Shown here one piece after another: positions 31,576-35,283 of a stretch of DNA of 64,000 bases. Source of the stretch: Tausonia pullulans (lineage: Eukaryota; Basidiomycota; Tremellomycetes; Cystofilobasidiales; Mrakiaceae); contig OX637625.1 in the NCBI GenBank assembly GCA_951802195.1, positions 310,001 to 374,000 of the forward strand, in the 5' to 3' direction. Under the pieces are notes generated by a model. It searched no databases. It was not told the origin of the DNA and was given only the letters and a program-made list of their open reading frames with translations. Position numbers and translations under genes: made by a program. Within the stretch, counting starts at the first letter, position 1. The number at the start of each line of letters is the position of its first letter.

Positions 31576-34500
31576 ATGTCCGACTTCGCCTTTTCCCACT
31601 CCGTCTCGCCCACGACACTCGTCGAGAAGCTTCTCGAAACCAAGAAAAAGAGCCCGACGCTCGTTCGCTCAACGGACTATACATTCCCCGCTCCCTCTTC
31701 TTCCAGCAGCAACGCGAACGCGGTCCCGTCGGAGGAGGACGTGTCGACCTCAACTCCGCGACGGCAACACGTCCTGACATCTTGGAAGATGCCCGAACAC
31801 CTTTATAGGGTTCTGCCGAGTCCGCTGCCGACGCTTGCTAGGGGACTCTTCACGGAGCAGGTGTCGCCTGCTGGGGGCGAGGGAGAGGGCAAGGAGACGT
31901 ATCGTGTCGTCTCGCGCGGGTACGAGAAGTTCTTCAATGTTTCCGAGGTTGCTTACACCGAGGTGGGCTCATTCCTTTGTCCGAAAAGTCTCCGGTAGCA
32001 TGCTGATTTGAGGCATTCTCTCTCAGTGGCCCTCCCTTGAGCGGTATACCACCGGCCCTTATCACCTTACGCTCAAGTCGAATGGGTGCCTCATCATGAT
32101 GTCCGCCATCGAGCCCGAGACGGTCCTTGTGACGAGCAAACACGCGATGGGGGAGGGCGTTGGAGGACCTGATGGGGAGACTGGAGTGAGCCACTCGCAG
32201 ATGGGGTGAGTACGGTGTCGAACCACTGCGTGAGGTGGAGTCCGAGCGAGCTGACGTGGGATCTTGCAGTCGGATCTGGATGGAGAAGCACCTCCAGGCA
32301 GCGGGGAAGACGGAGAAGGAGCTTGCCAAAGCCCTTTGGGACGACAACTTGACGGCCGTAGCCGAGGTTCGCCTGCCTGTCTCGCTCTGTCTCTCTTCTG
32401 TCACGTCTGATGTCTAAATCCTCTATAGCTCTGTGATGACTCTTTCGAAGAGCACGTCCTTCCTTACTCTCGAGACCTCACCGGTCTCCATCTCCACGGC
32501 CTCAACAAGAACGTTGCCCCGGCATTCGAGACGCTCCCTCCGAGCGCAGTCGCCTCCTTCGCGAGGGAGTTTGGGTTCATTGAGACGCGGGAGGTTATCC
32601 TGGGTACGATGGAGGAGGTGAGGAAGTTCACGGATGGAGTGGAGGAGAGGGGAGAGTGGGAAGGACAGCCAGTTGAGGGATTCGTGGTCAGGTGTACGGT
32701 CAAGGAGGAGCCAGCGGCAGCGGCCGTCGAGGAGCTTGGAGAGAAGGTTGAGGCGGTGGAGATTGGGGCCAAGAAGGGGAATGCTGCCAAGAAGGTTAGT
32801 CCAATTCCTACCTCAGACCAAACGAAAGAGTTAACGCCCAGCTCCACCTTCAGGGCCCCACCAAGAAGACCATCACCATCGCCCCGCCTCCTTATCCCGC
32901 AGGGACCACCTTCTTCTTCAAAGTCAAGTTCGATCATCCCTACCTCCTCTATCGCAACTTCCGCGAGATTACCAAACTCCTCCTCCCCCTCCTCGACCCG
33001 CTTCCTCCCGCTCCCCCTGTGGATGTGACCGCCGACCCGCGTAAGCCAAAGCCTAAGGCGCCCGAGCGAAAACCGATCAAGTTGCCGAGCTCAAAGCTCC
33101 AGGAGCCGGAGAGCGTCCTCTACGAGCGATGGTGTCGGATTAGCATGGAGACCCACCCGGAGTGGTTCGAGGGTATCAAGCGGGGAAAGGGGATCGTCGC
33201 TGCGAGGGAAAGGTTCCTTGCTTGGCTTGGGACCGAGGAGGGCAAGCAGGCCACGATGGATGAGAAGGAGAGGAGGAGGGCCGCGGGAGGTTGGAAGACA
33301 GAGACAAGGGGCGCGAAGGCGGAGAGAGGGAAGAACGGATGGGGGAAGACGCTCATCATCCCAATCGCTGTCCCTGGGTGTGGTGAGTTCTACCGCACAT
33401 GTGCTCGTTGGTTCGTAGAGCACATTTTGACGCTCCCTCATTCTCCTTCGTCTTAGGCAAGACCGCTATCGGCGTCGCCCTCAACAAGCTCTTTGGTTTT
33501 GCTCATACGCAGAGCGACGACATCACCACCAAAAAGACGGCGGCTGGCTTTGGCAAGAATGTTGAGACACTCCTTAAGGACAAGGATGTCAAGGTTGTCT
33601 ACGCCGACCGGTGAGTCGATGAGCAGCGACATTGCAGAAGCGAGCAGTTAGTTGACTGACCGCGCGGCCCCTGTCCCCAAGAAACAACCACATGCGCCAG
33701 CATCGGACCCAGCTCTCGACAATCGCTGTCCGGTCGCTCCCCTCAGCCTCGACGCTCCCAACGCGCATCGTCGCGCTCTACTTCCCGATTTTTGGTCCCT
33801 CTCAGCCGGCGACACTACATGAGCTACACCGGGTTGTCTCCTCGCGCGTTCTCGCCCGCGGCGACAGGCACCAGTCGCTTCGCGTCGCCCCCGAGGACCT
33901 TGTCCGACATGAAATGGTCATCTGGAACTTCTTCAATCAGCACGAAGCCCTCGAGGACGACGACGAGGCCGATCAGCCGGATGAGGTCATCGAGCTCGGC
34001 GTTCAGGCTAGCCTCGAGGAAAGCCTGATGCAGGTCATTGACCGGCTCGTGCCGATGCTTGGGCTTGAGCGGCCGAGCGAGGAGAAAATCGCCGAGGCGC
34101 TCGACATGGTCAAGACCTACGATCCCAAGGTCCGCAAAGATATCGACGGCGTTAAGAGTGCTCCGCCGAGGTACTACGCTCTCGCCCCGGAAATCGACCT
34201 CGTCAAGGTTGCCAAACAGACCATCGCTCGTGCCACCGCCTCGAGCCAGTCGAAGTGGGCCGTCAACCCATCGATATTCCTCGACAAGCTCATCGAGGAC
34301 GACCGGATCGTCTCCAAACCGCATGTCACGCTCGTTCACGAGAAGGAGGTGGAGGCCGAGCTGGAGGCTCACACCGCGAACGGGGCCGCCGGCTCGTCGT
34401 TGACGACCAAGCCCGAGGACGACCCGACATCCCGTCGAACGGCTTGGAAGACGTGTATCGCGATTGCCGCTCAAGGGCCACGTCGACTCTTCGGCTTCAA

Positions 34501-34789
34501 GCTCGGCCACCTCGTCTGGAACGACCGCGTCATGGCGATGACCGTCGAAGACATCCACCCGCTCGCGCTCAACGACGATGAGGGAGCTGAGGCCGTTGAG
34601 CAACTCGAGCTCCCACTCGCGGACCTCGAGGGAATGCATGTCACGGTCGGGACGAGGGACGCTGACGTTGCACCATTTGAGAGTAGGCCGCTCGTGAGAG
34701 CGTTCAGGAAGGGCGAGGCCATTGAAGGGGCTTCTTCCATTGACGTGGCCGACGTCAGGGGTAGGGGCCGGGTTAAGGGTTTATCGTGA
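31576..34789 (+). CDS. TRL1: tRNA ligase Trl1 (ligase, kinase and cyclic phosphodiesterase)
   Basis: Joins tRNA exons after intron removal and also seals HAC1-type mRNA in the unfolded protein response. Seven exons (31576-31962, 32027-32205, 32270-32366, 32429-32794, 32854-33382, 33457-33610, 33682-34789) give 939 residues. All three activities are visible. The ligase nucleophile Lys146 lies in LTLKSNGCLIMM (KxxG). The kinase Walker A is PGCGKTAIG (about 517-525, split by an intron). The phosphodiesterase has paired HxT motifs, KPHVTLVH (His785) and GMHVTVGT (His890). Length and order are those of fungal Trl1, and no key residue is missing. The next gene downstream is a permuted tRNA whose product would need this enzyme; whether the proximity means anything is unknown. 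Confidence 0.96.
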
Positions 34790-35120: not shown

Positions 35121-35126
35121 TATATA
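35121..35126 (+). promoter_or_regulatory. TATA-like element upstream of the permuted tRNA
   Basis: The hexamer TATATA lies 50 bases upstream of the first tRNA base of the 3' half. In permuted tRNA genes the internal A and B boxes are in reversed order, so an upstream element may matter for Pol III. Functional role inferred. Confidence 0.3.
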
Positions 35127-35175
35127 CTGACATCAAATCCAAGTCGACAGGAAGGCGCAGTTGTTTCGCTTTGAC

Positions 35176-35252
35176 ACCCGAAGGTTTCCAGATCGAAACT
35201 GGAGCCCGCAACTAACTGCGGGCTGGCGCAATGGTAGCGTGTCGGGCTCATA
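35176..35252 (+). tRNA. Circularly permuted tRNA-Met(CAT), initiator-like
   Basis: The 3' half (35176-35211) precedes the 5' half (35217-35252), with a 5-base spacer CTAAC. Put in normal order they make a 72-base tRNA. Acceptor stem: TGCGGGC (35217-35223) with GCCCGCA (35204-35210), 7 of 7 pairs, discriminator A35211. D stem: GCGC/GCGT around loop AATGGTA. Anticodon stem: TCGGG/CCCGA, with loop CTCATA plus A35176, giving CTCATAA. Variable loop: AGGTT. T stem: TCCAG/CTGGA with loop ATCGAAA. The GGG:CCC anticodon pairs and A54/A60 in the T loop are initiator hallmarks, though base 20 is T. The break falls exactly at the 37/38 intron site. Leader TTTCGC (35164-35169) can pair with trailer GTGAAA (35258-35263), and the base three before the 3' splice site (G35173) can pair with C32. 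A T6 terminator follows at 35278. No ordinary second copy of either half is nearby. Confidence 0.9.
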
Positions 35253-35277
35253 CAGATGTGAAAGAACATGTTCTTCC

Positions 35278-35283
35278 TTTTTT
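35278..35283 (+). terminator. Pol III T-run terminator of the permuted tRNA
   Basis: Six consecutive T, 25 bases after the last base of the 5' half, as expected for RNA polymerase III termination. The precursor would therefore carry a trailer long enough to pair with the leader. Confidence 0.6.

Follow-up and report, generated by a model that had tools for sequence, protein, structure and literature searches.

A probable multi-copy family of circularly permuted initiator tRNA-Met genes in a fungus-like genome

The 64,000-base stretch of DNA analysed here (the window; C6:310001-374000 of a 23,855,473-base assembly in 21 contigs) carries a transfer RNA gene for methionine (tRNA-Met) whose two halves stand in reversed order, the 3' half being followed by a short spacer and then by the 5' half (Table 1). 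The 3' half runs from ACCCG to GCCCGCAA, the spacer reads CTAAC, and the 5' half runs from TGCGGGC to CTCATA, counting 36 bases for positions 1-37 because its D loop is short. An earlier note on this DNA had proposed a circularly permuted tRNA-Met gene broken between positions 37 and 38; the coordinates that it gave for both halves and for the 5-base spacer are exact. Joined in swapped order, the halves make a complete cloverleaf with stems of 7, 4, 5 and 5 base pairs, which ARAGORN reports as tRNA-Met(cat), in line with the four stems described in that note. Nearly identical halves are found at 14 places in the genome, while their flanks differ.

Searches of the window with ARAGORN (no introns allowed) and Rfam (gathering score) reported no tRNA. 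To avoid circular reasoning, we built a covariance model in the permuted order (R2) from ten other tRNAs of the same genome, leaving this tRNA out. The best of its three matches in the window spans 35176-35252 (57.1 bits, E = 1.3e-16), and the second best, at 21.9 bits, falls on an ordinary intron-bearing tRNA-Pro (c63765-63921). The latter, on the minus strand, is a tRNA-Pro(AGG) with an 84-base intron, overlooked by ARAGORN when run without introns.

Table 1 Features of the permuted tRNA locus and its upstream neighbour (window coordinates)
Feature	Position	Strand	Remarks
Trl1-type tRNA ligase, several exons	31576..34789	+	ligase, kinase and cyclic phosphodiesterase domains; inferred start is the earliest ATG in the first open stretch
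TATATA, probable upstream RNA polymerase III promoter element	35121..35126	+	55 bases 5' of position 38
Leader arm with predicted pairing to the trailer	35148..35174	+	from duplex prediction; 23 leader-trailer pairs in the full fold
Initiator tRNA-Met, 3' half (positions 38-73)	35176..35211	+	remainder of the anticodon arm, then variable loop, T arm, 3' strand of the acceptor stem and discriminator A
Spacer CTAAC, 5 bases	35212..35216	+	spacer of 5-8 bases at all 14 loci
Initiator tRNA-Met, 5' half (positions 1-37)	35217..35252	+	5' strand of the acceptor stem, D arm, anticodon CAT and A37
Trailer arm with complementarity to the leader	35253..35279	+	from duplex prediction and full fold
T6 run, probable RNA polymerase III terminator	35278..35283	+	shares two bases with the trailer arm

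Genome-wide similarity and pattern searches, here and below, covered the assembled DNA and scored the best candidates only, so that none is exhaustive. With the window locus as query, they returned 14 places on contigs C1, C3, C6, C7, C9, C11 and C14. At each of these the 3' half precedes the 5' half on one and the same strand, and the spacer varies in sequence (CTAAC, CTTAAC, CATAAC, CTAAAC, CTAAAAC or CTAAACAA). The joined tRNA as query gave 28 half matches, 14 per half, none of which extends more than 4 bases beyond the join; three matches to the 5' half overrun it by 1 or 4 bases because of the trailer letters. Whereas the 5' half is identical at all 14 loci, the 3' half is identical at 13. 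At the remaining locus (L038), A52-T62 is replaced by G52-C62, a compensatory change that alters both bases of one T-stem pair. Both joined variants, the common one and that of L038, are called tRNA-Met(cat) by ARAGORN and have the conserved bases.

Covariance scores set the family apart. With R2, all 14 permuted loci scored 57.1-63.2 bits, the next best score among 41 loci being 28.3. A second model (R1), which includes the initiator tRNA as one of its 11 rows, was run over 88 loci (215 kb, many of them picked for tRNAs) and placed the same 14 at 68.6-74.9 bits, followed by 29.8; nothing else among the 88 exceeded 30 bits. Three locus pairs are near-identical (L030/L031, L032/L033 and L041/L042), with L032 and L033 lying about 12 kb apart and sharing, in inverted orientation, 1.76 kb at 99%. 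Counting L031, L033 and L042 as near-duplicates therefore leaves 11 distinct flank sets.

Leaders and trailers of the same locus are, on average, more complementary than those of different loci. For the last 20 bases of the leader and the first 25 of the trailer, the mean duplex energy over the 11 sets was -12.5 kcal/mol for cognate flanks against -7.4 kcal/mol for re-paired ones (permutation p = 4e-5), and for 30/40 bases it was -17.6 against -11.5 kcal/mol (p = 2e-5). These values come from 50,000 shuffles; an earlier run of 20,000 had given p = 5e-5, its floor. Some flanks are partly shared (L029 with L030, while the leaders of L037 and L041 are 67% alike). Removal of L029 and L037 (nine sets) left p = 4e-5 for both flank lengths, and additional removal of L036 and L039 (seven sets) gave p = 7e-4 (20/25 nt) and 3e-4 (30/40 nt). 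Applied to 34 ordinary tRNA genes, the test showed no effect (-13.1 vs -12.5).

Full folds from leader to trailer predict 12-23 leader-trailer pairs in nine of the 11 sets and keep the anticodon, D and acceptor stems intact; the T stem is folded in another register, so that 16 of the 21 expected pairs are retained in 10 of the 11 sets. The predicted pairing of the flanks at the break would fit a bulge-helix-bulge (BHB)-like motif. Together with the 14 genomic copies and the compensatory T-stem change, the leader-trailer complementarity strongly supports a circularly permuted gene broken at 37/38. The identity of the halves at 13 of 14 loci, the compensatory change at the other and the paired flanks suggest ongoing selection.

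Putative transcription signals enclose the whole unit, with a candidate promoter upstream and a candidate terminator downstream. In eight of the 11 distinct sets a TATA match sits 51-61 bases before the 3' half. Between -65 and -45 this corresponds to 8/11 distinct loci against 1/34 ordinary tRNA genes (p = 6e-6), the ordinary set being non-random and including related copies. Since distances at ordinary genes count from the mature 5' end, the wider window of -65 to -25 is the fairer comparison; it gives 8/11 against 5/34 (p = 7e-4). TATA matches are thus concentrated at the permuted genes in this genome. A run of at least four T starts 13-29 bases after A37 at all 14 permuted loci. Inverted A and B boxes are described as ill-suited to TFIIIC, with TATA taking over in Cyanidioschyzon merolae, in PMC3978253; according to the same source, TATA-like sequences are also carried by the ordinary tRNA genes of C. 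merolae, unlike the enrichment at permuted genes seen here.

Genes for parts of the presumed processing machinery are also present. The next gene upstream of the permuted tRNA, ending 386 bases before the 3' half, encodes a Trl1-type ligase with the Pfam domains PF09511, PF08303 and PF08302. Its RNA ligase domain is split into three pieces within 31837-32704, the kinase lies within 33456-34003 and the phosphodiesterase at 34037-34780, with the stop at 34789; matches to PDB chains named tRNA ligase were obtained with the last exon. This three-domain, fungal-type architecture lends good support to the attribution of the DNA to a fungus in the earlier note, which we regard as very probable. We take the proximity of Trl1 and the permuted tRNA at the window locus as chance. 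Two matches to the splicing-endonuclease family PF01974 were found, on C1 and C7. Moreover, each of 45 Lys-CTT 5' halves is followed, after a short intron and in normal order, by a 3' half. Intron-bearing ordinary tRNAs are therefore common in this genome, and the splicing route is probably used continuously. Like the permuted genes, the Lys-CTT and Pro-AGG genes are interrupted next to the anticodon and presumably served by the same endonuclease and ligase, and differ in that their halves stand in normal order.

No linear initiator tRNA gene was seen among the best-scoring candidates of the genome searches. The pattern CTCATAANCNNNAGGT, to which the joined gene is an exact match, was found at 33 places when one mismatch was allowed, two of them being permuted 5' halves on C14; ARAGORN called a Met gene at 0 of the 31 places checked, namely all but those on C16 and C20. 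Pattern search and ARAGORN thus yielded no ordinary tRNA-Met(CAT) gene among the best candidates. The earlier note had reasoned that translation initiation would depend on permuted-tRNA processing if the locus were real and the sole copy; with 14 copies the premise fails in its literal form, but the reasoning requires only the lack of a linear copy, and none was found among the best candidates.

The same pattern was one of six queries for the elongator tRNA-Met. Among the others, GNGCRYNNRNCTCATA matched 15 places, with no tRNA called by ARAGORN at any of them. RGCNCARNNGGNAGNGY...YTCATA with one mismatch matched 46 places, of which 45 are one sequence read as Lys-CTT and one is not tRNA-like; the version with a nine-base D loop matched 30 places, all one sequence read as Ile-AAT. 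The 68 places matched by ATCNNNAGGTYNNNNGTTCRANNC comprise 45 Lys 3' halves, 22 Asn and one Lys-like variant. A query with the DNA of three elongator tRNAs, run without a positive control, gave no match. The elongator tRNA-Met may itself be permuted, interrupted or diverged. Many of the Lys-CTT (24/45), Ile-AAT (21/30) and Asn (9/22) matches fall into a dense cluster of repeated tRNAs at about 674000-1374000 on C6, which suggests large-scale amplification. On contig C21 (18.8 kb), four tRNAs lie within 701 bases and were read as mitochondrial.

We consider the window locus a working circularly permuted initiator tRNA-Met gene, one of at least 14 copies and with no linear copy found, at a probability of roughly nine in ten; judged from its sequence, the multi-copy family as a whole is real and very probably functional. 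Several observations weigh against this reading. Three of the 11 sets (L034, L035 and L040) have no TATA match. Only in 5/11 sets with 20/25 nt, and in 6/11 with 30/40 nt, does the cognate trailer outrank the other ten, and that of L038 ranks eighth. Two sets (L035 and L038) have minimum-free-energy folds without leader-trailer pairs, and the fold of L035 loses part of the tRNA, keeping 11 of 21 expected pairs. Added to these are the elongator gene, which none of the six queries located, and a first pair that reads T1-A72 at all 14 loci. Finally, searches that score the best candidates could miss a diverged linear initiator gene, and unassembled DNA lies beyond their reach.

This last point leaves room for an arrangement in which the permuted copies are relics or minor contributors and a missed or unassembled linear gene supplies the cell; one primer pattern for large-subunit (LSU) rRNA indeed matched no place in the assembly, so some repeats are perhaps unassembled. 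The signs of ongoing selection on halves and flanks, and the absence of a Met call at the 31 CTCATAANCNNNAGGT places checked, make such a supply unlikely. Slightly less likely still, in our estimate, is that the permuted gene encodes the elongator tRNA-Met. A1-U72 is the usual, though not universal, first pair of eukaryotic initiator tRNAs, and T1-A72 together with the missing separate elongator gene would fit an elongator. The T loop, however, reads ATCGAAA, with A54 present alongside the anticodon CAT, and the tRNA has A60 and three G-C pairs at 29-31/39-41, which we take to be further initiator marks. According to PMC3978253, A54-U55-C56 marks initiator tRNAs.

Two further explanations concern the locus itself, and we regard both as highly improbable. 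The halves are separate exons and could be transcribed apart and joined in trans as a split tRNA; a spacer of 5-8 bases is too short for a terminator and a promoter, and flanks taken from one locus pair more strongly, on average, than flanks from different loci. An assembly artefact or a dispersed repeat would account for the three near-identical locus pairs and for the few other loci that partly share a flank, but not for 11 distinct flank sets spread over seven contigs.

For the permuted initiator gene, the most likely mechanism, as far as sequence can indicate, is that of the known type II, with the break at 37/38. RNA polymerase III (Pol III) would transcribe leader, 3' half, spacer, 5' half and trailer as one RNA; because the A and B boxes stand in inverted order, TFIIIB is proposed to be recruited at the upstream TATA. 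Leader and trailer would then pair beside the anticodon stem into an intron-like fold whose far end is open. The tRNA splicing endonuclease would cleave after position 37 and before position 38, and Trl1 would ligate 37 to 38, giving a circular RNA. From this, RNase P and tRNase Z would excise the 5-8 base spacer, and after CCA addition the tRNA could initiate translation. What would be new is the host group, the copy number, the apparent full replacement of linear copies and the selective use of TATA.

According to PMC3978253, permuted tRNA genes occur in unicellular algae, in a nucleomorph and in one archaeon, for the most part with one gene per tRNA, and their physiological significance is unclear; the review counts 34 genes from six algae and one archaeon. 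Later additions are Auxenochlorella (PMC12633428) and the nucleomorph of Amorphochlora (PMC4494063). In the portions available of PMC8450103, PMC4090602, PMC12633428 and PMC4494063, those natural permuted genes that are mentioned are algal, nucleomorph or archaeal. Our survey of titles and the beginnings of abstracts in the open-access literature, with most subscription journals outside its scope, found no report of a permuted fungal tRNA among the papers listed; owing to this mainly open-access scope, a claim to the first case in fungi is provisional.

The closest counterparts are the prasinophyte type II (37/38) genes for the initiator tRNA-Met (iMet) with anticodon CAT of Micromonas pusilla and Micromonas sp. 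RCC299 (Maruyama 2010, as tabulated in PMC3978253), which share identity, break and hBH-type pairing with the genes described here. Each of these has a single entry, the spacers being 47 and 12 bases long, in contrast to the 14 copies and 5-8 base spacers in a fungus-like genome with Trl1. In C. merolae (Soma 2007, as reviewed in PMC3978253), the iMet gene is likewise permuted, and permuted order goes along with an upstream TATA-like sequence and a downstream T run; the break is reported at 50/51 with a 74-base spacer, unlike here, and the circular intermediate was shown there and is presumed here. Thermofilum pendens has permuted iMet and Tyr genes (Chan 2011, according to PMC3978253), and a permuted gene is its single source of initiator tRNA, as appears to be the case here. 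It differs in being an archaeon, in the break at 59/60, the single copy, an added intron and the encoded CCA (PMC3978253). As here, the permuted genes of Auxenochlorella, a green alga, were found after an incomplete tRNA set, in that case from tRNAscan-SE (PMC12633428).

We also searched collections of viral and general genome contigs, which consist of viruses and prokaryotes and have little bearing on fungi. The permuted-initiator pattern gave six matches in viral contigs, all rejected for unpaired acceptor stems (best 4/7 pairs), and one in the general genome contigs, rejected for having neither a tRNA nor an R1 match. Among the viral matches, L098 (7783-8963) holds 14 ordinary tRNAs in a tandem array, where the initiator-pattern match has 3/7 acceptor pairs. 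Such an array mimics the permuted order to the covariance model, scoring up to 39 bits, and serves as a false-positive control. A 29-base stretch of the 5' half and a degenerate 29-place pattern of the 3' half had no matches in the viral contigs.

Taken as a whole, we think it reasonably likely, though clearly less certain than the status of the window locus, that this probable fungus relies for its whole supply of initiator tRNA on a 14-member permuted family transcribed from its own upstream TATA-driven Pol III promoters, not from internal A and B boxes. Every protein would then depend on a circular RNA step carried out by the endonuclease and Trl1, and the elongator tRNA-Met is possibly unusual too. 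As a practical caution, ARAGORN and Rfam, the two finders tried, give no initiator tRNA at such permuted loci. Present in a probable fungus, this multi-copy permuted family would carry permuted tRNAs beyond algae, a nucleomorph and an archaeon, and would connect them to the Trl1 ligation pathway. It offers 11 natural leader-trailer pairs that differ in sequence, most of them still complementary. Two questions become testable in this organism: how Pol III would transcribe a gene with inverted A and B boxes in a genome where the sampled ordinary tRNA genes mostly lack a TATA element, and whether an essential tRNA may be supplied wholly by a rearranged precursor.
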